From NCBI GenBank assembly GCA_903924485.1, contig CAIYBL010000084.1, positions 1 to 53,358 on the forward strand: a stretch of 53,358 nt of DNA, written 5' to 3'. Both the position numbers and the translations under genes were made by a program. Source of the DNA: an uncultured Actinomycetes bacterium (GTDB lineage Bacteria; Actinomycetota; Actinomycetes; Nanopelagicales; Nanopelagicaceae). The notes below the pieces were generated by a model. It had not been told where the DNA came from, did not search any database, and worked only from the letters and a program-made list of their open reading frames with translations. Each line of letters starts with the position of its first letter. Position 1 is the first letter of the stretch. Below, in pieces: positions 25,474 to 38,153 of the stretch.

Positions 25474-25824
25474 CTGTGAAGGTTAGGTGCCAGCACTTTA
25501 AAAAGCAAAGTTTTGCAAGCGTGCAACCATAAACTTTAAAGTGAGAGTTGAAGGTTGTAATTACACCTGTGTAACCCACGCTCAATTTATACACGCGTAA
25601 AAGTCGCCACGCATTTCGGGGTGCTACTACCCACGGTTTTTGATTGTGCTTGAGGGGTACTAATCGCTAAATTTCCAATCCGCTCAGCATCCGTAGAGCG
25701 CAAAAAATGTTTACGAGGTTGATCGAGGCTTTGTAGTTGAAAAGCCTTATAAATCAAGTGAATTTCGGCGTAAATCCTGCAAAGGATTTTTTTTACGCTA
25801 TCAGGGTGAGAGGCAGGGGTGACT
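25474..25824 (+). promoter_or_regulatory. Long non-coding leader upstream of pilB
   Basis: This 351-base stretch holds no convincing gene. Read on the + strand it contains successive hairpins: 25681-25700 (CGCTC/GAGCG), 25726-25747 (AGGCTTT/AAAGCCT) and a terminator-like hairpin at 25772-25794. All three lie within about 145 bases of the pilB start. The left part should also carry the promoter of the divergent small membrane protein. The arrangement resembles a transcription attenuator or riboswitch, but no known aptamer consensus was recognised. Confidence 0.5.
25772..25794 (+). terminator. Terminator-like hairpin just before pilB
   Basis: AAATCCT pairs with AGGATTT around a GCAA tetraloop. 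A run of eight T residues (25787-25794) begins in the right arm, and outer GCGT/ACGC could also pair. It points toward pilB and ends 30 bases before the pilB ATG. There is no + strand gene between fprA (600 bases upstream) and this site. It therefore either ends a short leader RNA or switches pil expression. Confidence 0.6.
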
Positions 25825-27372
25825 ATGAAGGGCGACCTTCTATCGCGACGCGGCAACCGTGGGGGCAATACCCCAGAGACCGTGGATGCTGATTTGCTCT
25901 CTGTCGAGATCCCTGAGGATCTAACTTTTGAAACCTTTGTTTCAGATCCATACGCCGAAGCCCATAACGCACTACCTCGTCAGAAAGTTCTTGAACTTGA
26001 TTGCTTAGGCCTTCGTTGGGACGGACAAACACTTCTCGTTGGAGCACCTAAAGAATCTTGGGACAAAGTAAAAGAACTCGCTACTCAGCTGGGCATTAAA
26101 GTTAAATTGATCGAGGCATCGCGTGAGGAAATTCGCGAAGCACTCTCTTTGACAATCACAATTGAAAAAGCTTCTTTCGGTACAGCGCAAATTTCAAAAA
26201 GCGATGCGGGCGAAGCGCCTATCTCAAGTCTTGTTCAGCAAATTGTTGAACGTGCATTTTTAGAACGTGCAAGCGATATTCACTTTGAGACCTACGAAGA
26301 CCACGTACTTGTACGCGCACGTATTGACGGACGACTTCGCAACATTCTTGAACTCCCTGCACGACTAGCACCGGCTATCAGCAGCCGTATCAAGGTTCTT
26401 TCAAAGATGAACATCGTCGAGCGTCGACGACCACAGGATGGGCAGTTCACTGCAGTAATTGATGGCCATCCCCTGGATATCCGTGTTGCATCAGTTGCCA
26501 CAGTGTTCGGTGAAAAACTTGTACTTCGTCTTCTTGATGGACGTCGCCCAAGTGTTGACCTTGAGTCACTTGGTATGAGCGCGCACCAGCTAGAGCTCTT
26601 CACCAAAATGATCACAGCAAACAACGGACTTGTTCTTGTGGCTGGTCCAACTGGAAGTGGAAAGACAACGACACTTCACAGTGCGATTCAGTCAGTAGCT
26701 GTAGAACACAAGAATGCAGTGACCATCGAAGACCCTGTTGAGTATGTTGTTCCTGGCATCACTCAGATTCCAGTTTCAGAAGCAAACAACTCAGGATTCG
26801 CTGTTCAACTTCGTGCCGTTCTTCGTCAAGATCCAGACATCATCTTGGTTGGCGAAACTCGCGATGCTGAAACTGCTCGTATCTCAGTTCAAGCCGCACT
26901 CACCGGCCACTTAGTTTTCACATCAATCCACGCAACAGATTCTGTTGGTGCTCTTTACCGTTTATTACAAATGGATATCGAACCCCACTTGGTGGCCTCA
27001 TCGGTTCGTGGAGTTGTCTCACAGCGCCTTATCCGCAAAAACTGCAGATTCTGCACCGTGAAGTACCAAGCAAGCACGGACGAAAAAGTAACTCTTCGGG
27101 CATACGGTTTTTCTAGCGACTCTCTAGCTAAAGGCGTCGGATGCACCCTTTGTGGCGGAAGCGGATACCGCGATCGCATCGCCGCTTACCAAATTTTAAG
27201 TATCAACGAATCACTCACTGAGTTGATTGTTTCTCGACCAGACCCACACGTATTTCGTAAAGCAGCAACGAAGGCAGGAATGACAACGATGGATCAAGAA
27301 GCAGTTCGTTTGGCAGTGGCTGGAATTACCACACTGGATGAGGCAATGACTTTGTTGGTGGGCGATGAATAG
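25825..27372 (+). CDS. pilB: Type IV pilus assembly ATPase PilB (GspE/PulE family)
   Basis: A 515-residue cytoplasmic hexameric ATPase that powers pilin assembly. After an MshEN-like N-terminal region come the Walker A box GPTGSGKTTT, the Asp box (TIEDPVEY), the Walker B-like RQDPDIILVGETRDAET and the His box GHLVFTSIHATDS. A zinc tetracysteine, CRFC...CTLCGGSGY, near the C-terminus is typical of extension ATPases rather than PilT. ATG 25825 with AGGCAGGGG upstream is preferred to GTG 25819. pilC follows directly. No retraction ATPase pilT is in the cluster. Confidence 0.95.
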   Translation: MKGDLLSRRGNRGGNTPETVDADLLSVEIPEDLTFETFVSDPYAEAHNALPRQKVLELDCLGLRWDGQTLLVGAPKESWDKVKELATQLGIKVKLIEASREEIREALSLTITIEKASFGTAQISKSDAGEAPISSLVQQIVERAFLERASDIHFETYEDHVLVRARIDGRLRNILELPARLAPAISSRIKVLSKMNIVERRRPQDGQFTAVIDGHPLDIRVASVATVFGEKLVLRLLDGRRPSVDLESLGMSAHQLELFTKMITANNGLVLVAGPTGSGKTTTLHSAIQSVAVEHKNAVTIEDPVEYVVPGITQIPVSEANNSGFAVQLRAVLRQDPDIILVGETRDAETARISVQAALTGHLVFTSIHATDSVGALYRLLQMDIEPHLVASSVRGVVSQRLIRKNCRFCTVKYQASTDEKVTLRAYGFSSDSLAKGVGCTLCGGSGYRDRIAAYQILSINESLTELIVSRPDPHVFRKAATKAGMTTMDQEAVRLAVAGITTLDEAMTLLVGDE

Positions 27373-27412
27373 TCACGACGTAGAGCAGTTACAGATAATG
27401 GAGGATTTTGAG

Positions 27413-28753
27413 ATGACAGCAGTGGTTGACACCGTTGCCGAGAGCAAGAGTGATTCCAAAGTTCGTGGCATAAACATGCCGAGTGTTAGCATGCCGAAAC
27501 TTTCCTTTGGAAAACCAAAAGGTAAAAAGAGCGACCCTGATGCCCCTAAAGCCCTTAAGAATTATAAGTACACAGGCATTAGCGCTGAAGGAGAGCCTGT
27601 TTCAGGAAAGCTCAAAGCAGCAGCCCACAGCGATGTAGATTTCAAACTTCGCAATGAAGGAATCAAAGATCTGCACATCCAGGTTGCACAAGCTTGGTAT
27701 GAACTTGAATTTGGAAAGACCGTTCCGCCAGATGTGCTTTTGCAATTCACACGTCAACTAGCCTCTTTCAGTTCCGCCGGAATTCCAGCGGCTCGCGGAC
27801 TATCTATTTTGGCCGAAACAACTGAGCACAAGAAGATGAAGGAAATCCTCGAGAGCCTTGTTGTTGAAATCGAGGGCGGCGCGACTCTTAGTGAATCAAT
27901 CGGACGACACACACATGTCTTCCCAGATTATTACTCAACCATCTTAAGTGCCGCCGAAAGAAGCGGTGACCTACCCGGCGCCCTTCGTACTCTCAATTCC
28001 TACATCGAGCGCGACTTGCGTTCACGTCGCGCAGTGCGTTCGGCAATGTCCTACCCAATCGTTCTCGTTCTCTTGGCTGGTGTTGCGGTAACAGTACTTT
28101 CTGTAATCGTTCTACCTCGCTTTGAGAGCTTCTTCAACACACTGGGAGTCGAACTTCCACTAACAACCAGAATCCTCCTTAGCGTTACCCGCTTTGTTGG
28201 GTCCTACTGGTGGATTATGGCAATTCTTGCTATCGCTTTTGTGGTGTCACTTGTATTGATGTCACGAAATCCAAAGGGGCGCGTCATTCTTGATGCGTTA
28301 CTACTGAAGACCCCAATTTTCGGCAAGATTTTTAGTCTTATTGCCCTAGAGCGTTTTTGCCGAGTTCTTTCGACGCTGGTACGTACCGATGTTCCTTTGC
28401 CAGATGCTCTAGACCTTGCAGGTCGGGCCACAGGAAACAAAGTTTTTGAGAACGTCATTGAAACAGCTCGCGTTCAAGTACTTAACGGTGAAGGCCTTGC
28501 AGCCCCATTGGGTGAGTCTGGCCTCTTTCCTTCAGCGGCAATTCAGATTTTCCGCGTTGGTGAAGAATCCGGTGAGCTTGAAGCACAGTTAGAACAAGCT
28601 GCTAGTTACTACGGTGACGAGCTTGATCACAAAATGAAAAACTTCACCGCACTCATTGAGCCAATCACATTGATTGTTCTCGGTGGTGGCGTTGGATTCG
28701 TAGCCGTTGCGCTGATTTCAGCCATGTATGGAATTTACTCGGGGATCAAATAA
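27413..28753 (+). CDS. pilC: Type IV pilus inner-membrane platform protein PilC (GspF family)
   Basis: A 446-residue membrane platform protein that works with PilB. Two T2SF domains are visible: the first begins near LLQFTRQLASFSSAGIPAARG and the second near ALERFCRVLSTLVRTDVPLPDAL. Three or four membrane helices lie at MSYPIVLVLLAGVAVTVL, WWIMAILAIAFVVSLVL and the C-terminal PITLIVLGGGVGFVAVAL. A lysine- and proline-rich cytoplasmic extension of about 50 residues precedes them. ATG 27413 is chosen because GGAGGA is placed seven bases upstream; in-frame upstream codons would overlap pilB. The TAA shares a base with the next pilin ATG. Confidence 0.93.
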   Translation: MTAVVDTVAESKSDSKVRGINMPSVSMPKLSFGKPKGKKSDPDAPKALKNYKYTGISAEGEPVSGKLKAAAHSDVDFKLRNEGIKDLHIQVAQAWYELEFGKTVPPDVLLQFTRQLASFSSAGIPAARGLSILAETTEHKKMKEILESLVVEIEGGATLSESIGRHTHVFPDYYSTILSAAERSGDLPGALRTLNSYIERDLRSRRAVRSAMSYPIVLVLLAGVAVTVLSVIVLPRFESFFNTLGVELPLTTRILLSVTRFVGSYWWIMAILAIAFVVSLVLMSRNPKGRVILDALLLKTPIFGKIFSLIALERFCRVLSTLVRTDVPLPDALDLAGRATGNKVFENVIETARVQVLNGEGLAAPLGESGLFPSAAIQIFRVGEESGELEAQLEQAASYYGDELDHKMKNFTALIEPITLIVLGGGVGFVAVALISAMYGIYSGIK

Positions 28754-29481
28754 TGACGACTATAAAGAAAATTCAATCTGACGCAGGAGACTCTCTTGTC
28801 GAAGTAATCATCGCGATGATGATCATGGGACTATTTGGTCTTGCACTTGTTGGTGCGCTCATTTCTGCTCAACCAATGGCGCTCGCCTTTAACAAGACAT
28901 CAGCGGCAACAACACAATTGACGTTAGCCACTGACCAAATTCAATTGCAGCCATTTGCTGCTTGCTCATCAACTACTCCACAGCCATACATTTTGACTGG
29001 AGCAGCTACGACCGATAATGGCCAAGGTGGCTTCTCAGTCACGACATCTGCGCTGCCTGTTGCGATTGCTCCAATAGCAATCTCAACTACCAATACAACT
29101 AAGGTCTCTTTTACATACGCGGCAACTCTTGCAGCCACCGGCGGCACTGGACCGTACACATGGACCGTCACACCAGCACTTCCTAACGGACTGACGCTGA
29201 GTTCTGCAGGAAATATTTCAGGGTCACCTCAAACTGAGATGGCCTCGAACTACCTTTTCACTGCAACATCAGCAACTGGCGCTACCGCGATCCGAATCAT
29301 CAATCTCACGGTGGCAACAATTCAGCCGCTTGTCCACAACCCAGCCGATACGACCTATGTTCAAACAAGCTGGACACCATGTGGCGATTACGCCACAGCG
29401 GCAACACAGGTGCAGCAAGTGAACATCACGACAACCGTGGGTAAGCGTCAAATTTCCCGCACGATCGTGAAGTCGGCATAA
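28753..29481 (+). CDS. Type IV pilin-like protein with Ig-like domain
   Basis: A 242-residue prepilin. The leader ends with DAG, followed by DSLVEVIIAMMIMGLFGLAL, which fits prepilin-peptidase cleavage after Gly with Glu at mature position 5. The exposed part contains a putative-Ig (He_PIG-like) module: GGTGPYTWTVTPALPNGL, then TLSSAGNISGSP. Such modules are common in adhesins. It overlaps pilC by one base and is followed by another pilin with one base of overlap. It is likely a minor or tip-proximal pilin; the exact role is inferred. Confidence 0.8.
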   Translation: MTTIKKIQSDAGDSLVEVIIAMMIMGLFGLALVGALISAQPMALAFNKTSAATTQLTLATDQIQLQPFAACSSTTPQPYILTGAATTDNGQGGFSVTTSALPVAIAPIAISTTNTTKVSFTYAATLAATGGTGPYTWTVTPALPNGLTLSSAGNISGSPQTEMASNYLFTATSATGATAIRIINLTVATIQPLVHNPADTTYVQTSWTPCGDYATAATQVQQVNITTTVGKRQISRTIVKSA

Positions 29482-30386
29482 TGAAAAAGAATCTATTGCG
29501 CCGCATGGCCAACGATGATGCAGGGGTAACCTTGATTGAAATCATCGTTTGCCTTGTTTTGAGTGCAATTTTGGCTGTCGGGATTACTCAATTGCTCACG
29601 GCATCAACTGGCGCGATGGATCTATCAGCCACTGCGGCTACATCAGGAAACATGCAGTCAAACCTTGTTTCATATTTTACAAGCGATGTAAACATGTCAA
29701 ACGGTTACACCGTTCCATTTTCCAGCGCGTCAAGTGCAGCACCAAACGTTAACAACATGTGCACCTCGTGGGATGCCACTGACACCTCGTACGCAAGCGT
29801 AGTTCCGCTAGTAACCATGAGTGTCCCTGTCGCCGAGGTTCTCAAGAGCGCAACATGGAATGGCACCAGCGCCACCTACACAAGTTCCACCACGGGAATC
29901 TTCGTTCCAGGACAGATTGTCAATATCACTGACTTTGTAAACGTCGGCTTAAACCTAGTGAGCGCGACCATTACAAGTGCAACAGGTAACACGTTAACTG
30001 TTCCAAACGTGACAACACCTTCCGGTTCAGTCACTGAAGACGCCACGCTGTACATGAATCAAAATGTTGGCTACGAAATCCGCACCATTAATGGTGCGGG
30101 CCAACTCTGGAGAGTTACCTGCGCAATGATCGGTGCAAACCCGATTGACGCACTTTCAGTTCAACTTCGTTCAGGTTTGCCAGTCTCATCGAGTGCGGTG
30201 TGGTTGACAAGTATCAAATGCTTATCGTCCACAGGAGCAACAATCTCTTCAACAGATTGCCCTGTGAACACGTTTCTCAATACACAAGCCACATACCCAG
30301 GTATCAGCTTGGCAATACCAGCAACAACTATCACAACTCCGAACTATCCGTCACAAACACTAATAGCATCAAGGAGCATGTCATGA
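29481..30386 (+). CDS. Type IV pilin-like protein
   Basis: A 301-residue prepilin with leader MKKNLLRRMANDDAG and mature start VTLIEIIVCLVLSAILAVGI (Glu at +5). The globular region is Thr/Ser/Ala-rich and includes a beta-type insert, TGIFVPGQIVNITDF then VSATITSATGNTLTV, similar in layout to the insert of the pilin gene at 33492. Cysteines in NMCTSWD, RVTCAM and IKCLSSTG...TDCPV may form disulfides. Its stop overlaps the next ATG by four bases. It is probably a minor pilin. Confidence 0.78.
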   Translation: MKKNLLRRMANDDAGVTLIEIIVCLVLSAILAVGITQLLTASTGAMDLSATAATSGNMQSNLVSYFTSDVNMSNGYTVPFSSASSAAPNVNNMCTSWDATDTSYASVVPLVTMSVPVAEVLKSATWNGTSATYTSSTTGIFVPGQIVNITDFVNVGLNLVSATITSATGNTLTVPNVTTPSGSVTEDATLYMNQNVGYEIRTINGAGQLWRVTCAMIGANPIDALSVQLRSGLPVSSSAVWLTSIKCLSSTGATISSTDCPVNTFLNTQATYPGISLAIPATTITTPNYPSQTLIASRSMS

Positions 30387-32758
30387 AATTATGGATGAAG
30401 AAGGATCACGGATCATCGTTAGGTCTTGTCCTAATATTTGTGACCATCGCGGGTATGTGGCTAGGAGCAATTTTGCTCTTGCTACAGGTAACTTCGAATG
30501 GTCCAAGCCTCACCAATAATGAGGCTGCGGCGGCCGCGAAAGTAACCGCAGGCGTCCTCGATCAACTTAAGAAAGACCCAACCATTGGCTCGGCTGCGGT
30601 TAGCCCGACCAAGTGCACTGGCCTAACTACTGCTGTTACTTCAGGTTACACAGTCACATGCGTGCCTGTTTCACCTTCAGGTAACTCTGGCTCGCCAGCA
30701 GGAGTTGTCACAACAGGAACCGGAGCCAACCCTGGTGTTGACTTCGGTACAACTGTCACTGGTCCACTTACATTTGATAACGGCCTTACAAGTACAGGCC
30801 CAATCACTGTAGATCCAGCCGCCTTCGTACCTGTTGTTACTCCTAATACGCCAACATGTGCGACCAACCCACTCTTGTGCGGTTCAAACCCATCTGGAGG
30901 CACACCACAACTTCTGGACCCAGTCATTACGATTACCGCAACGACTCCGTGGATAACAACCACGAATGCAACGCAGCCAATCTCAGCGACTTCGACAAAC
31001 ACGGTAACTCCTATAGTTCTTTCCTTATCGGCGAACAGCACGAACTGCAGTCTCTCCGGAACGACACTAAAGGCACTTAGCCAAGGAGCATCCTGTGTTA
31101 TTGTCGCCGATCAAGCTGCTTCATCGACGTACAACGCAGGCTCAAATTCTCAAACGATTACCATTGATATCTCTAGCGTTTCAAACAGCGGCCTACAACA
31201 AGTTAAATTCAACCCTAACCCACACTCCATGGAGGTTGGCGAAGGAACTCAGGCTGTGAGTGCTAGTGCTTACTTATTCGCAACTAATACAGGAATCAAC
31301 ACAGGTACCATCACTTACTCCTCTTCTCCATCAGGAGTTTGCACAAACAGCGGTGCTGTAGTGACTGCAGTTGCAGTTGGAACATGTACATTGACTGCAA
31401 CTTCACCAGCAGGAACGGTTAGTTCGGTTTCTTACACCTCCGCATCGACACAGGCAGTCATTAAGATCTACGCAGCGGATGGCGACGAGAGCGGTGGAGA
31501 TACTTCTGGTTGTTCCTCAGACCGCTCTAACAAGGGTGCTAACTCTGGTAAGAAGAATTCAGACTCTTCTACCAATAGCTACTACGCAGGTAACGGCGCA
31601 TCTGGTAACTCATGGAATAACAACACCGACTCAAATTCGAATTCCTGGAACAACAACAAATACTTCACAACAGGAAGTAGTTCAAGCGCCTGGTCAGGTG
31701 CCGATAACTATTCTGGCTTCTCATACGGTCAAGATGGATCTCAATACATTGAAGACCATTGCGGCGATCAAGGTGGCGATGGCTCATCTGAAGGTGACCA
31801 CGCACATCACCGCTACGGGGACAACGACTGCGACATCAGAGGTACTTCATGTACTGAAGAAGATGAATCAGATAACGTCTCAAGCCACACAGCTCAGACT
31901 GTAACTTCCAAGTGCACATCTGGAGCTGTGACAATCGCTCTAACAGCGGGAGATTACGATTCGACAGATATTATCGAGTTGAATAAGTTCCTGAGCCCTA
32001 CTGGCTTCACGTCAAGCACGACTTACAGCACCACCTCAGGTAGCGGTTGTAAGCCATCATCATCAACCGTCACTGTGACGCTTGGCGATGGTGAATACCA
32101 GTTCAGTGGATCAACAGCGCTAGTTCTGAACAATGCCTTGGCATTGGTAAAGAATGCAAACGCAACCATGAACGGTAGAACTTGTACCTACACAGGCGGC
32201 GTTTCAACGATGCCAAAGCGTACAAATGGAAAGTCAGCCGGAGTTCTTCAAAGTCAACTTCATGGAGTTGTCGTGAACATGGCTGTCGATCTAACAATTA
32301 CCGCTGGAGAATGGGACCTTTGCGGTCTCAATAACCCAACGGGATTGAATTACGCCTTCAAGAATGCCACACCTACACAGGGAGATCTTGTTACATCCCG
32401 TGAAGGTTCAACATTCCGCCCAGTTACATCCTCTACCTACAACACACTTACTGTTGGTCCTAACGGAACCTTCCGTATTGTTGGTGCAGTCGATGCCCAG
32501 TGGACTTCATTCCAATGGACACAGAATCCAACTAAGCCAAGCTTCATCACTCAGGAAGCCATCTTTAAGGCAGCTCACCTCACAACAACAGCTGCCTCTT
32601 CCTACTCTGTGCCATTTGGTCCAGGGTCGGGTCGCGAAGTTCAGATAACACTTATTAACACCAAGACTGGCGTTAAGAAGTCAATGATCGTGTTCATCGA
32701 TGACGTTAATGGTGCATCTGTAGGTAACAGCGTCAGAATCTTGAGCTCTACTCTCTAA
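30383..32758 (+). CDS. Large pilus-associated surface protein with Ig-like and Ser/Asn/Gly-rich regions
   Basis: A 791-residue protein encoded among the pilins. The N-terminus (KKDHGSSLGLVLIFVTIAGM) has a pilin-like basic stretch, Gly and hydrophobic helix, but Leu replaces the usual Glu at +5; PilX-like proteins also vary here. Two Ig-like modules follow, each with a Cys pair (NSTNCSLSG...GASCVIVAD and PSGVCTNSG...VGTCTLTATS). Then comes a low-complexity stretch of about 140 residues rich in Ser, Asn, Gly, Asp, His and Tyr (coding bases about 31490-31900), and a Cys-containing C-terminal domain. ATG 30383 has AAGGAG upstream and overlaps the previous stop. It is a good candidate for a tip adhesin, by inference. 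Confidence 0.72.
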   Translation: MKLWMKKDHGSSLGLVLIFVTIAGMWLGAILLLLQVTSNGPSLTNNEAAAAAKVTAGVLDQLKKDPTIGSAAVSPTKCTGLTTAVTSGYTVTCVPVSPSGNSGSPAGVVTTGTGANPGVDFGTTVTGPLTFDNGLTSTGPITVDPAAFVPVVTPNTPTCATNPLLCGSNPSGGTPQLLDPVITITATTPWITTTNATQPISATSTNTVTPIVLSLSANSTNCSLSGTTLKALSQGASCVIVADQAASSTYNAGSNSQTITIDISSVSNSGLQQVKFNPNPHSMEVGEGTQAVSASAYLFATNTGINTGTITYSSSPSGVCTNSGAVVTAVAVGTCTLTATSPAGTVSSVSYTSASTQAVIKIYAADGDESGGDTSGCSSDRSNKGANSGKKNSDSSTNSYYAGNGASGNSWNNNTDSNSNSWNNNKYFTTGSSSSAWSGADNYSGFSYGQDGSQYIEDHCGDQGGDGSSEGDHAHHRYGDNDCDIRGTSCTEEDESDNVSSHTAQTVTSKCTSGAVTIALTAGDYDSTDIIELNKFLSPTGFTSSTTYSTTSGSGCKPSSSTVTVTLGDGEYQFSGSTALVLNNALALVKNANATMNGRTCTYTGGVSTMPKRTNGKSAGVLQSQLHGVVVNMAVDLTITAGEWDLCGLNNPTGLNYAFKNATPTQGDLVTSREGSTFRPVTSSTYNTLTVGPNGTFRIVGAVDAQWTSFQWTQNPTKPSFITQEAIFKAAHLTTTAASSYSVPFGPGSGREVQITLINTKTGVKKSMIVFIDDVNGASVGNSVRILSSTL

Positions 32759-33447
32759 TGAAACTAAAGAAGAGGATCAAAGGGGATATGGGGATGACTC
32801 TCGTAGAAATCCTCATAACCCTGATGATCATCGGCATCATGAGTGGGATTGCTTACGTGGGCCTTGCCGGCGCACGTAAGTCTTCCGCGCAGAATGCTTG
32901 CAGAACAAGTTATCAAGCAGTGTCGTTGGCAGTGGCTAATTATCAAGCCGATAATCAGTCACTGCCACCTTCACTGGCAGCACTTACGTCAACAAACCCG
33001 GTTTACCTAAACCCAGGATTGTTGTCGACAACTGCAACAAGCTTCGGCTTAACACTGGGTACCTTCCAGATAACTAAATACCAGTCAAGTGGAACCACCC
33101 GCACGATCACTTATTCATCCACAATTTCGCCAACAATGATGGGTAACGTCTTACAATTGGGCGATCAAATATCAATCGCTGGCGTTGATTCAACGAACTT
33201 TGATGGAACGTGGCACGCATTAGCCGCACCAACATCTCTCGGATCTTCGCTCTTTACAATTACATATACGGGCGCAGCTAGCTATACGTTGGCTAGCACC
33301 GTGGCCCCAACAACCGGAGCAATTCTCAACGCTGTCACAAACGCAAGTTCACCTTTCGAGGTGTACGTGTGGACCCCCACTGGGACCTTAATTGCCACAA
33401 CTAATGATCTCTCTGCTGCACCCGCAGCATGTGCGCTAGTCGGCTAA
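32758..33447 (+). CDS. Type IV pilin-like protein with tail-fibre-like insert
   Basis: A 229-residue prepilin. Leader KGDMG is followed by MTLVEILITLMIIGIMSGIA with Glu at +5. The helix continues into QNACRTSYQAVSLAVANYQ and SLPPSLAALT, the usual alpha-1 and loop of pilins and pseudopilins. The C-terminal half holds a beta module with GNVLQLGDQISIAGVDSTNF followed by DGTWHAL and SLFTITY. This is the G-D-x-V-x-I-x-G-V...G-T pattern seen in phage tail-fibre and adhesin repeats. It overlaps the upstream stop (TAATG). Confidence 0.8.
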   Translation: MKLKKRIKGDMGMTLVEILITLMIIGIMSGIAYVGLAGARKSSAQNACRTSYQAVSLAVANYQADNQSLPPSLAALTSTNPVYLNPGLLSTTATSFGLTLGTFQITKYQSSGTTRTITYSSTISPTMMGNVLQLGDQISIAGVDSTNFDGTWHALAAPTSLGSSLFTITYTGAASYTLASTVAPTTGAILNAVTNASSPFEVYVWTPTGTLIATTNDLSAAPAACALVG

Positions 33448-33491
33448 AAAAGATAAACCTCAACCCTACGAATCCCAGAAAAGGAAACACG

Positions 33492-34262
33492 ATGATTAAG
33501 ACAATTCACCGCCTCATTAAGAAGCGCGACGCCCTGCGACTTGCCGGCGATGATGGCTTTACACTTCTAGAACTTCTTGTCGTAATTCTGATTATCGGAA
33601 TTCTTGCCGCAATCGTTGTTGTTGCCCTTTCTGGTACCAGCCAAGATGCAGGCGCAAAAGCATGTGGTCAGGACGCTTCTAACCTTTACAGCGCCCTCTC
33701 TTCTGCTAGTTCTACTAGCCAAACGACATCACAGACTCTTACTGTGCAGACAGTGGCAAACACTCAGGTCGGCACAACTGGTGTCTACACCTCCGCTGCA
33801 CTAACTATTCCTAATGGTTCTGGAATTTTCCCAGGACAAACCGTAACTGGTGCAGGACTTCCTTCCGGAGTAGTCGTCAATACAACTGACTTCTCGACAG
33901 CAGGAACTTCGAAGATCACTCTTAAGAGTTCATCTTCTGCATCGTTTACAACAACAGCCACCGCATACTCCTTCTCAGGTAATGCGAACTACCCATCTAC
34001 TGCCGCCACCATAACCGCAGCTGCTGCCGTTATTCCAGGTGCAGCATCAACCACCACTTACAAGTGGCAGGCATACAACACAGCTTACGAACTAAACGGC
34101 TTGATCCCTGGCTTCATCACCAAGATCCCAAGTGAGCTTGCCGTTTACTACATAACTGTTCAAGGTACTTCAACGCTAGCAACACCAATTGTGGCTGTAG
34201 GACCAACCGCAACATGGATTGCTGCTAACCAAGGACAGACCTGCACAGTCGCAGGTATCTAA
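33492..34262 (+). CDS. Type IV pilin (possible major pilin)
   Basis: A 256-residue prepilin with the most canonical signature of the set: leader ending AGDDG, then FTLLELLVVILIIGILAAIV with Glu at +5. ATG 33492 has AAAAGGAAA upstream and is preferred to an extension 21 codons longer. The body carries a Thr/Ser-rich beta insert with GIFPGQTVTGAGLPSGVVVN and repeated SSSSASFTTTATA. Two Cys (AKACGQD and QGQTCTV) may close a C-terminal loop. Its separate ribosome site and 44-base spacer could let it be made in larger amounts than its coupled neighbours. Confidence 0.85.
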   Translation: MIKTIHRLIKKRDALRLAGDDGFTLLELLVVILIIGILAAIVVVALSGTSQDAGAKACGQDASNLYSALSSASSTSQTTSQTLTVQTVANTQVGTTGVYTSAALTIPNGSGIFPGQTVTGAGLPSGVVVNTTDFSTAGTSKITLKSSSSASFTTTATAYSFSGNANYPSTAATITAAAAVIPGAASTTTYKWQAYNTAYELNGLIPGFITKIPSELAVYYITVQGTSTLATPIVAVGPTATWIAANQGQTCTVAGI

Positions 34263-34268
34263 AGAACT

Positions 34269-35063
34269 ATGAGGGATGCGGTGTCAGCAATTGGGTTGGC
34301 ACCGCATAACTTTCTTTTATCTTGGATTGCTATTGGTTTAGCTTGTGGCTCTTTTGTTACAGTCCTCGTCGCTCGGATCCCCGAGCGAAAAGGAATCCAA
34401 GGTAGGTCGCAATGCATTTCATGTAAAGCGACAATTCAAGTGCGAGACAATATTCCAGTTGTTAGTTATCTACTTCTTAAAGGTAAGTGCCGTTTTTGTA
34501 AGGTTCCAATTTCAATGCGGTACCCACTTACAGAATTAGCAGCTTTGCTTCTGGTAGCAGTGGCAGTAGAAAGTTTTCAAGGTTGGTGGAAAGTTTTAGC
34601 ATGGGTCGTCTTTAGTGTTTTGGGGTTAGCGTTAGCAATCATTGATTTGCAAACGCATCGGCTTCCAAATGTATTAACGGCGTGGCTTTTCGGTTTAGTC
34701 GCAGCGTTGTTGCTCGGAGATATTCTGGCAAATCATCATGCGGATCGAATCAAGATGGCCGTCATCTCATCTGTTGCTTTAACTTTCTTTTATTTTCTCC
34801 TTAATATTATTTCGCGCGGCGGAATGGGAATGGGAGATGTAAAGCTAGCTGCATCTATCGGATTAATACTCGGATATATAAACGGTTCGTCGGTAATTGT
34901 CGGAACTTTTTGCGGATTCTTTTTTGGATCCACGATAAGTGTGATGTTGATGGCTACCGGCCGCGCAACGAGAAAGAGCCAAATCCCATTTGGCCCATTC
35001 ATGTTGCTAGGCGCATTCGTTGCTCCATGGCTGACACCACATCTAGTGTCTATCTTTCTATAG
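34269..35063 (+). CDS. pilD: Prepilin peptidase / N-methyltransferase PilD (A24 family)
   Basis: A 264-residue polytopic aspartic peptidase that removes pilin leaders. The two active-site aspartates are in LALAIIDLQTHRLPN and GGMGMGDVKLAASIG. The zinc-binding pairs CISC and CRFC in the N-terminal cytoplasmic loop (SQCISCKATI, KGKCRFCKVPI) belong to the methyltransferase region, so the protein should be bifunctional. ATG 34269 starts six bases after the last pilin; GTG 34281 with AGGGATG upstream is an alternative start. It closes the pil gene string. Confidence 0.93.
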   Translation: MRDAVSAIGLAPHNFLLSWIAIGLACGSFVTVLVARIPERKGIQGRSQCISCKATIQVRDNIPVVSYLLLKGKCRFCKVPISMRYPLTELAALLLVAVAVESFQGWWKVLAWVVFSVLGLALAIIDLQTHRLPNVLTAWLFGLVAALLLGDILANHHADRIKMAVISSVALTFFYFLLNIISRGGMGMGDVKLAASIGLILGYINGSSVIVGTFCGFFFGSTISVMLMATGRATRKSQIPFGPFMLLGAFVAPWLTPHLVSIFL

Positions 35064-35090
35064 ACCCCCATACCTCGTAATTAGGGGGGT
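35064..35090 (+). other. Inverted repeat after pilD
   Basis: ACCCCC at 35064-35069 pairs with GGGGGT at 35085-35090 across a 15-base loop, starting at the base after the pilD stop. There is no following T-run beyond TTGTATTT. It may be a weak terminator or RNA-stability structure separating pilD from the secreted-protein genes. Confidence 0.35.
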
Positions 35091-35107
35091 TGTATTTAAG
35101 GGGATAG

Positions 35108-36547
35108 TTGTGTCACCCTTTACGCGTGCGTCTTCCCCAAAGACGGCTAGTGCTGTTGTCGGCACTTGCCATTTCGCTCGTGGCCTCTGCCACCTCGATT
35201 TCTTATGCCCAAATGAATACGGGCTTTGGCATGGATTCGGCCTTAAAAAACAGCGAAATTCAACAAGTTTCCTATTCAAGCGAACAGCGCGTTGCTTCAC
35301 ATCTGAAAAAGACAACCGTTGCCGCGGTTGCCAAGAAAGCACCCCTCGTAAAGAGCGTTAAGAAAAAAGCCTCCACTCCGACCAAGAAATCTTCTTCCAC
35401 CAAGCCAGTTGTAAAACCCACCCCTGAGAAAAAGCGCGATACAACAGGGCCTCTTCCAGGCTTTACTCCAGATGCGCCACCAAAGACCAGCTCCCAGGAA
35501 AATCAAAACGAGAGCGGTTCTGAAACTCCAGCGGTAGTGGTTCCGGATCTAGTGTCCCCTCAAGTTAATCCTCAAACGCAACCAACTGCGGTGACTACAG
35601 AAGTGACCAGTAGCGCGCCATCACTACCACGCGTTGTTTGCCCAGTGAAGGGCGCGACTGTTGTTGAATCAGGAACAAACCTGACACTTACATGTGCTCC
35701 GTATTCAAAACTAGGAACACTCGGATACGTAGAGAATCGTTGGTCAGTTGTTTATCCGCAAGACGGATCAATTCACGCAATTGTTACCAAGACCCTTACT
35801 GCGTATCAACGATCATTCCCGTCACCAGCTGATCAAAAAGTTTATGAAGATCGAATCACCACTGATCTGGAACTTGCGGCGTTCATTGATCTTCTTGTTG
35901 CGATGGATAAGAAAGCATTCCCTGGATTTGCTGATGTGATTTCGCAAAATACTTCACTAGTAGATGCAATCAAACCTTGGGCCGCGGCATTGGCGCAAAG
36001 ACGCGGTGTACCTGATGACACCTTTAATGTTATGGGTGAAGGTTTCATGGTTGCCCTGGGTGCAAATTCGCAAACAGTAAAACAAGATGCCTTCGAGACA
36101 CTTTATGCCCGAACTAAAACAATTCAAGATTATGCAGATCTCGTTGACAAAGCTTATTGGCTGAACTACCCCAACCCTTCACTTGCACAAGTTTCACAAC
36201 GCTTTACTTTCATAGATTCACTTCTATCCATGACGGTAACAAATGCGCAGAACGCTTATCTAAAGAAGGCGCAGGCGGCTGCGAAATCCATTTATCCTGC
36301 ATACGCATCTGCTATTGATCAAGGTCAAACGATCGATCAGATCATGGCACCGTGGGTTGCACATTTCGCCGATCAACTTGAGCTGTATCGCGGCGGGATT
36401 AATCCAATTCAAGAGCGCACATTGATTCTGACCGCTATTACTCCTCCATCATCGATGGCGGAATTTGATGCAACATTGACCCATGACCCTCGATGGGTAC
36501 TCACCAAGAAGTCTAAAGACGCCACGGCAGGGAAGCCTTCTTACTAA
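35108..36547 (+). CDS. Exported protein of unknown function, paralog 1
   Basis: A 479-residue protein with an N-terminal signal sequence (RRLVLLSALAISLVASATSI, cleavage near SYA|Q). A Lys/Pro/Ser-rich linker of about 100 residues leads to a C-terminal region (about 175-479) shared with the next gene. Common blocks are DLLVAMDKKAFPGFA, AYWLNYPNPSLAQ and the ending AGKPSY. It has an internal duplication: PGFADVISQNTSL...IKPWAAALA near 272-296 and PAYASAIDQGQTI...MAPWVAHFA near 397-421. The end includes LTHDPRW. The start is uncertain: TTG 35108 with AAGGGGA upstream, or GTG 35126. Co-orientation just after pilD suggests a pilus- or surface-related job. Confidence 0.7.
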   Translation: MCHPLRVRLPQRRLVLLSALAISLVASATSISYAQMNTGFGMDSALKNSEIQQVSYSSEQRVASHLKKTTVAAVAKKAPLVKSVKKKASTPTKKSSSTKPVVKPTPEKKRDTTGPLPGFTPDAPPKTSSQENQNESGSETPAVVVPDLVSPQVNPQTQPTAVTTEVTSSAPSLPRVVCPVKGATVVESGTNLTLTCAPYSKLGTLGYVENRWSVVYPQDGSIHAIVTKTLTAYQRSFPSPADQKVYEDRITTDLELAAFIDLLVAMDKKAFPGFADVISQNTSLVDAIKPWAAALAQRRGVPDDTFNVMGEGFMVALGANSQTVKQDAFETLYARTKTIQDYADLVDKAYWLNYPNPSLAQVSQRFTFIDSLLSMTVTNAQNAYLKKAQAAAKSIYPAYASAIDQGQTIDQIMAPWVAHFADQLELYRGGINPIQERTLILTAITPPSSMAEFDATLTHDPRWVLTKKSKDATAGKPSY

Positions 36548-36550
36548 TTG

Positions 36551-36570
36551 GCCATCCCAGGCCATCCCAG
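36551..36570 (+). repeat. Tandem 10-base repeat
   Basis: GCCATCCCAG occurs twice in direct succession in the 145-base gap between the two exported paralogs. The rest of the gap has a short GCCC/GGGC dyad (36668-36680) close to the next start and no gene. Confidence 0.6.
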
Positions 36571-36692
36571 GCTCGACCGGTTTTGAACTCGATTCAAGGC
36601 GCGATGAGAGGTAGCACCACGAAGTCACCCCCGAAGTAAGGTAATCCCCAAAAAATCTGGTCTTTTTGCCCAAATCGGGCTATTTTGGACCT

Positions 36693-37928
36693 ATGTCTTT
36701 GGAGAGAGATGGCAAAAATGGGGTACGAGTACCCCTGATTCTTCTTTCCCTGCTTTTTCTTATCGGAACAGTTGGACAACAAACGGCATTTGCTGGAGCA
36801 ACAAGTGGGGGGTTAACTCTTAACCCAAAACCACCTCTTGTTGCACCAAAAGTACCGGCCTTGATTACAAATCCAACTCCTCCAGCACCAGTTGCTGGAG
36901 AGCCGATTATTCCACCAACGATTGCTCCCACAAGCTCCATTGTTGCTGTTGCTCCAGTACCTGTAATTCAAGATTCAGGATCCGCACTTAAAGCAACTGT
37001 TCTGGTTGATGCGTGTAGCAAAGTTGGAACAACAAAAATTGATGCAGAAACAGCTGAGACACTTACTTGTGTTCTCTACACAAAACTCGGTGCGCTTAAA
37101 GATTCAAAAATAGAAACTCGCTGGGCGAATGTTTATGCAAACAGCAAGGTAGTTCATAAACTACTAACCGACGCTCTAGTTGCTTACCATCGCTCTTTCC
37201 CAACAGAGGATCAACAATTGGCTTACGAAAAACTTGTTGTTGACAACTTAGAGTTCGGTGCATTTGTCGATTTGCTAGTTGCTATGGATAAGAAGACATT
37301 CCCTGGTTTCGCTGAATATCTTTCACGAGATACTTCACTTGCTGAGGCGATAACACCATGGGCTCAAATGCTTGCACAGCAACGCCAACTGCCATTAGAC
37401 ACCTTCAATACGACTGGTGAAGCATTCCTTACCGCTCTAGGCGATAGTCCAGTAACTGTTACCCAGGAAATATTTGACAAGTTGTTCTTAAAATCAGAAA
37501 CATTGCGTGTTTACGCCGATTCGATTGATGAGGCCTACTGGCTGAATTTCCCAAATCCAACTCTTGCTCAAATTGCCCTGCGTTTTGGCTATATCGACTC
37601 ACTATTAACCCTTCCTGCGGAGCAAGGCAAGGCCGCATACTTGAAGAAGATGCAAACCAATGCCAATAACCTGTATCCAAAATTTGCCCCAGTAATGGCT
37701 CGCGGAAGCACAATGGCCACGATTATGGCGCCTTGGGTTTCCTATTTCGCTGCGAAACTCGAGTTGTATCAGTCTGAGATTGTTCCAATTGGAGAACGAA
37801 CTTTGCTTAAGGTTGCAATGTCACCTCCAGCAACAATGGCTGAATTCGATGCGATAATTGCTCAAGATGCTCGTTGGCCGCTCACAACAACAGCCAAGGC
37901 GCTTGCAGCCGGGAAGCCTTCCTTCTAA
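36693..37928 (+). CDS. Exported protein of unknown function, paralog 2
   Basis: A 411-residue secreted protein, tandem paralog of the preceding gene. The signal sequence is VRVPLILLSLLFLIGTVGQQ with cleavage near AFA|GA. A Pro/Ala/Val-rich linker (about 40-90) follows, shorter than in paralog 1. The conserved region has LDLLVAMDKK-type FVDLLVAMDKKTFPGFA, IDEAYWLNFPNPTLAQ, LYPKFAPVMARGSTMATI, then MAPWVSYFAAKLEL, IAQDARW and the terminal AAGKPSF. The same two internal repeats as in paralog 1 are visible. ATG 36693 is chosen because the longer TTG start would place ten residues before the basic n-region. The family is not one I can name from bacteria. Confidence 0.7.
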   Translation: MSLERDGKNGVRVPLILLSLLFLIGTVGQQTAFAGATSGGLTLNPKPPLVAPKVPALITNPTPPAPVAGEPIIPPTIAPTSSIVAVAPVPVIQDSGSALKATVLVDACSKVGTTKIDAETAETLTCVLYTKLGALKDSKIETRWANVYANSKVVHKLLTDALVAYHRSFPTEDQQLAYEKLVVDNLEFGAFVDLLVAMDKKTFPGFAEYLSRDTSLAEAITPWAQMLAQQRQLPLDTFNTTGEAFLTALGDSPVTVTQEIFDKLFLKSETLRVYADSIDEAYWLNFPNPTLAQIALRFGYIDSLLTLPAEQGKAAYLKKMQTNANNLYPKFAPVMARGSTMATIMAPWVSYFAAKLELYQSEIVPIGERTLLKVAMSPPATMAEFDAIIAQDARWPLTTTAKALAAGKPSF

Positions 37929-38078: not shown

Positions 38079-38151
38079 GCGCCCGTAGCTCAACGGATAG
38101 AGCATCTGACTACGGATCAGAAGGTTAGGGGTTCGAATCCCTTCGGGCGCA
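38079..38151 (+). tRNA. tRNA-Arg (anticodon ACG)
   Basis: Acceptor GCGCCCG pairs with CGGGCGC. The D-arm is GCTC/GAGC, anticodon stem TCTGA/TCAGA holds CTACGGA, and T-arm AGGGG/CCCTT (one wobble) holds TTCGAAT. Discriminator A38151; CCA is not encoded. The A34 of ACG would be edited to inosine by TadA. A strong terminator follows. Confidence 0.97.
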
Positions 38152-38153
38152 CT

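Follow-up and report, generated by a model that had tools for sequence, protein, structure and literature searches.

Background

Type VI secretion systems and tailocins are known examples of bacterial machines with homology to parts of phage tails. Among pili, those of the competence type assemble without PilM, PilN and PilO, and competence pili also lack PilT. PilMNO is reported to be specific to type IVa pili (PMC6916266), and in Myxococcus, PilY1 and minor pilins together form a priming and tip complex (PMC7541494). Isolated phages of the Nanopelagicales, the order from which the DNA analyzed here derives, are described in a further report (PMC10202952).

In the current study, we analyzed two paralogous genes, P1 and P2, that follow a pilus operon in a stretch of 53,358 nucleotides (i.e., the window) from an uncultured actinomycete of the Nanopelagicaceae. 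With a probability of roughly 0.45, we interpret the P proteins as secreted, minor-pilin-associated tip or adhesion proteins, PilY1-like in action and outside the PilY1 family.

Architecture and internal repeat of the P proteins

Both open reading frames are present where an earlier note on this DNA placed them (35108-36547 and 36666-37928, both on the + strand). Orthologs and codon conservation point to probable true starts at a GTG at 35126 for P1, which is 473 aa long from this codon and 479 aa from the listed TTG at 35108, and at an ATG at 36693 for P2. P1 (35126-36547, +) combines a signal peptide, a basic linker of 140 aa (11% Lys), a two-cysteine mini-domain (35639-35743, +) and two phage-lysin-type modules, of which copy 1 (35876-36064, +) is the weaker and copy 2 (36254-36529, +) contains DPRW. 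P2 (36693-37928, +) has a P1-like architecture with a shorter, Pro-rich linker (70 aa, 21% Pro), its own mini-domain (37014-37124, +) and module copies at 37257-37445 (+) and 37635-37907 (+), the second with DARW. The signal peptides were predicted by inspection, both linkers are P/T/S/V/K-rich and disordered, and the CxxxG...LTC...W stretch of the mini-domain is predicted to form three short strands in the AlphaFold model, followed by about 240 conserved helical residues. P1 and P2 are 48% identical over the C-terminal ~330 aa, and the alignment of eleven relatives from five genomes has a mean column identity of 70%. Sequence inspection, composition and alignment bear out the signal peptide, disordered linker and conserved C-terminal region that the earlier note had described for both proteins, and the C-terminal DPRW/DARW and the AGKPS[FY] ending that it gave are also present in the pair.

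The repeat copies span residues 257-319 and 383-474 in P1 and residues 198-260 and 324-414 in P2. Compared as profiles, copy 1 and copy 2 scored 40.9 over 48 columns, the best of 60 column-shuffled controls reaching 22.0, and a mixed phage/bacterial profile recovered copy 1 alone in two paralogs of the related genome G010 (E 3.6e-4 and 7.4e-4). In the P proteins, one module is present twice in diverged form, and the internal repeat noticed earlier is beyond chance. The motif proposed for it holds in that both copies occur in each paralog, while its regular expression is loose, copy 1 of P2 having L and D at the positions written as [IM] and [GN].

Searches against Pfam and NCBIfam gave no enzyme domain in P1 or P2, and no cut-off in either collection is passed by the module or by the family. 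DUF6712, DUF459 and DUF4423 were dropped as Pfam identities, being weak and below cut-off; DUF6712 reached 19.7 bits, with the curated Pfam cut-off at 25. The AlphaFold model has a mean pLDDT of 86, and the fold matches in the PDB were low-scoring and helical only (Foldseek best E 1.5; VIA best Z 3.8), which is uninformative for a helical protein.

Homology of the module to phage virion lysins

The suspected likeness to phage virion proteins was confirmed, with matches to PHROG 6654 (E 5e-11 for P1 and 2.9e-5 for P2) and nine viral Foldseek matches (BFVD) at probabilities of 0.97-1.00, in which the named ones are phage proteins, including tail proteins such as the FlowerPower minor tail protein. 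P1 also matches phrog_34303, an unannotated phage family, through the same C-terminal module (E 1.3e-5). Normalized by query length, the TM-scores to the phage models were low, at 0.31-0.37, and the fold match between models supports homology without full superposition; besides, the helix order of copy 2 is the same in the bacterial and phage AlphaFold models. In a profile-profile comparison of 38 diverse phage sequences with the bacterial family, copy 2 scored 76.1 and copy 1 40.4, the maxima of 60 shuffles being 21.8 and 20.4, respectively. Tblastn against 50,697 phage records matched Streptomyces phages only, at marginal E values (0.03-0.8); most of the genes hit are annotated as minor tail protein, peptidase or glycosylase. 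When the phage collection was searched with the module, all matches were to Streptomyces phages except for one Caudovirales record. The viral_contigs search with P1 alone gave no match because the P1 patterns are too specific; the phage relatives were reached through PHROG, tblastn and phage queries. A mixed alignment of 13 rows proved too divergent to be scanned by pattern.

The module-bearing genes of phage Manuel are two neighbors, both ending in the module, one of which carries NlpC/P60, while the model of the other has a lytic-transglycosylase fold (VIA Z 13.0, 121 aligned residues, 3.2 A). Since the module is common to two different enzymes in one virion, it is in phages best read as a module for attachment rather than catalysis. 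Judged from the sequence comparisons, the module of P1 and P2 is homologous to the C-terminal module of the virion lysins of Manuelvirus-type Streptomyces podoviruses. The likeness initially suggested, i.e., to repeats in large virion proteins of aquatic tailed phages, needs correction, as the phage relatives are podovirus tail lysins (NlpC/P60 peptidase and lytic transglycosylase) and the named ones infect soil Streptomyces. In a phage-like locus of another actinobacterium (L019:7452-10339), an M23 plus SLT lysin adjoins a stand-alone copy of the module.

The earlier note had further raised the possibility of a surface or phage-interaction system. As a phage-interaction system, the module would act as a decoy, receptor or interference protein against phages using the same module. 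The homology to the virion module is the one argument in favor of this role, and we consider it very improbable, with no defence genes noticed beside the P genes, no sign of rapid turnover, named phages that infect Streptomyces, and a genomic linkage that is to minor pilins. The interpretation of the P proteins as tip or adhesion proteins draws on this linkage, described below.

Distribution of the family

Of 296 genomes of the same taxonomic family, 7 matched the family profile. Five of them are the P-bearing members of the window's genus, and the other two, both from a single further genus, contain distant and incomplete relatives (G254 and G255; L113:6868-7896 and L114:6899-7447), the copy in G254 being cut by a contig end and that in G255 broken. 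The genes leuC/leuD lie near the L114 copy and also near a third paralog in L018. Among 396 genomes drawn from the phylum, the only match was in the window's own genome. Of 395 genomes from the class, G055 and G402 alone matched outside the genus; both matches lie beside phage-like genes, a location for which they were not counted as cellular members. The related named records are metagenome-assembled genomes of uncultured actinobacteria, likely of freshwater origin judging by the record names. The module is widespread in phages and in cells confined to one lineage, which suggests a capture from phage to host, transfer in the reverse direction being the other possibility.

A pilus operon linked to the P genes

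The operon lies on the + strand and encodes, in order, a PilB-type extension ATPase (PF00437; 25819-27372), a PilC-type platform protein (PF00482; 27365-28753), the minor pilins mp1 (28753-29481) and mp2 (29481-30386), a large pilin-like protein with a hydrophobic N-terminus and no Pfam match (30200-32758, its real start probably downstream of 30200), a pilin-like protein (32758-33447), a probable major pilin (33429-34262; N-methylation motif, E 6e-7), the prepilin peptidase PilD (A24; 34269-35063), P1 and P2. The large pilin-like protein is 852 aa long here and 1,229 aa in G020. The same order is kept in G009 and G020; in G010 the operon is split over two contigs, and in G019, P2 borders the end of its contig and the pil genes lie on a different one. 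A tRNA-Arg gene (acg; 38079-38152) is located directly 3' of P2, and in G009, G020 and G010 the P genes are likewise followed by this tRNA sequence. As the genes beyond it differ between the window genome and G020, it may mark a rearrangement boundary.

The proposed linkage to pil genes thus extends to other genomes, and a close PilC (at least 72% identity) and the P family coincide in the same five of 21 same-genus genomes, a small and phylogenetically clustered sample from one genus. Seven other same-genus genomes have a PilC at 30-33% identity. PilM (PF11104) was found in none of the five P-bearing genomes vs 10 of the 16 others, and in these ten relatives with a canonical type IV pilus the P family is absent; all the genomes with the P family are draft assemblies, which makes absences provisional. 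P-bearing genomes also lack a PilT-like third T2SSE ATPase, their only T2SSE ATPases being PilB and one of about 350 aa common to nearly all of the genus. No PilN or PilO was seen among the Pfam matches within the window operon. The canonical same-genus operons continue after PilD with PilM and two small PilN/O-like genes, a place that P1-P2 occupy here, and the two pilus types, i.e., canonical PilB-T-C...D-M-N-O (L115-L118) and PilB-C...D-P1-P2 (window 25819-37928), are mutually exclusive in the genomes seen. With PilM missing and PilMNO reported as specific to type IVa pili, the P-linked system falls outside that type IVa definition. In the deeper homologs the pilus linkage is not absolute, because the copies of G254 and G255 lie away from visible pilus genes.

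A third paralog, P3, occurs in G010 and G020 in a separate mini-operon P3-mp1-mp2 (L017:1650-4331 and L018:6836-9598), in which mp1, carrying a putative Ig domain (He_PIG), is 72-77% and mp2 66-69% identical to the copies in the main operon of G020. In the main operon, mp1 and mp2 are several kilobases away from the P genes. Three genes that lie apart in one locus but side by side in another likely act together, and this co-travel of P3, mp1 and mp2 is the strongest functional clue.

The position of P1-P2 after pilD also allows their interpretation as a wall-embedded collar or assembly scaffold, which would be bound to peptidoglycan via the lysin-derived modules and direct the pilus across the wall in place of PilM-N-O. 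The long, basic linker of P1 and the occurrence of the phage module in peptidoglycan-attacking enzymes would be in line with this role. We regard it as unlikely, since the signal peptide of the P proteins is of the cleavable type and they lack a cytoplasmic portion that could contact a PilM-like ring, P3 travels with the minor pilins and not with the motor, and competence-type pili dispense with PilM-N-O. On the other hand, the lack of PilT and PilM, generally known from competence pili, could point to secreted pilus-operon products for DNA uptake, or to soluble surface proteins that play no structural part at a tip. ComEC is indeed encoded in 19 of 21 same-genus genomes, but it is present whatever the pilus type and was discarded as an uninformative competence marker; the P proteins have no DNA-binding signature, no competence gene was noticed beside the operon, and this alternative appears improbable.

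Conserved signal-peptide codons of P1

The segment coding for the P1 signal peptide (35126-35212, +; 87 nt) is near-identical DNA in genomes with a protein identity of 58% over the rest of P1. Between G020 and G010, all 29 codons of the stretch are identical vs 42% of the matching residues elsewhere (Fisher 5.5e-11), and between G009 and G020 this holds for 28/29 codons vs 41% (Fisher 1.7e-9). G009 and G020 share their longest exact match (63 nt) in this stretch, the next non-tRNA match being 29, and the stretch is single-copy in each genome. Its predicted RNA fold (-31.4 kcal/mol, z -3.3) contains hairpins, and the few within-genus differences either fall outside the predicted pairs or keep them intact. 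Two genomes of another genus have CATCTTCCCCAAAGATG where the first hairpin is otherwise CGTCTTCCCCAAAGACG, i.e., G-C to A-T on both sides, an exchange that also alters two amino acids. As a single covarying pair, this compensatory change is no more than suggestive, with gene conversion as an alternative explanation. No Rfam family was found over the stretch, and viral contigs gave no exact match to it.

Proposed function

The P proteins are, by sequence, exported non-pilin proteins encoded with minor pilins, as is PilY1, and the PilY1/minor-pilin tip complex serves as the analogy for proposing them as tip proteins. We infer that exported P1, P2 and P3 would act together with a dedicated pair of minor pilins in a minimal type IV pilus-like system that lacks PilM and PilT, most likely forming or capping the filament tip and binding cell-wall or surface polymers. 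The binding or docking part would be the two tandem helical modules, which in podoviruses are placed behind tail-lysin enzymes. A phage is the most likely source of the module, which would have been duplicated after its capture and joined downstream of a signal peptide, a wall-spanning linker and the two-cysteine domain. By analogy, such a mechanism is plausible. Its fullest version, in which a virion lysin-attachment module has been domesticated as the working part of the tip complex in an undescribed filament type (phage-module tip proteins combined with PilB-PilC-PilD but no PilM/PilT) and the P1 signal-peptide codons double as a conserved RNA or DNA element, seems rather doubtful as a whole.

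Overall, a phage-type module in constant within-genus company of a pilus suggests that a phage part has been reused on a bacterial surface fiber. If true, a pilus-linked exported protein with a reused phage lysin attachment module would represent a new route, and little-cultured actinobacteria would have a second pilus type that, in the genomes seen, never occurs together with the canonical one. The P proteins could also reveal what the module does in phages.

Comparison with known systems

The Manuelvirus (Beephvirinae) lysins of PHROG 6654 (phages Manuel, Immanuel3 and WRightOn) share with the P proteins a C-terminal helical module of about 90 aa, its pattern YPxxAxxIxxGxTxxxIxxPY/W...DPRWxxT and its helix order in the models. 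While these lysins combine an enzyme with one strong module, the P proteins have a signal peptide, two modules and no enzyme, and with no peptidoglycan-cutting domain they are not themselves tail lysins. The lysin genes lie within virion gene clusters, whereas the P genes stand beside pilus and chromosomal metabolic genes, with no phage genes seen among the neighbors.

The canonical type IVa operon of the same genus (PilB-PilT-PilC-pilins-PilD-PilM-N-O) likewise encodes PilB, PilC, pilins and PilD, with pilD late, but its PilC is only 30-33% identical, and in the P-linked operon PilM and PilT are missing and P1-P2 occupy the position of PilM-N-O. PilY1 is much larger than the P proteins, which have no PilY1/PilC domain among their Pfam or NCBIfam matches, only weak sub-cutoff DUF hits, and occur in an actinobacterial host without PilM or PilT. 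Like the PilY1/PilC tip adhesins of type IVa pili, however, the P proteins are exported non-pilin proteins encoded with minor pilins, and the genomic logic of the two is analogous.
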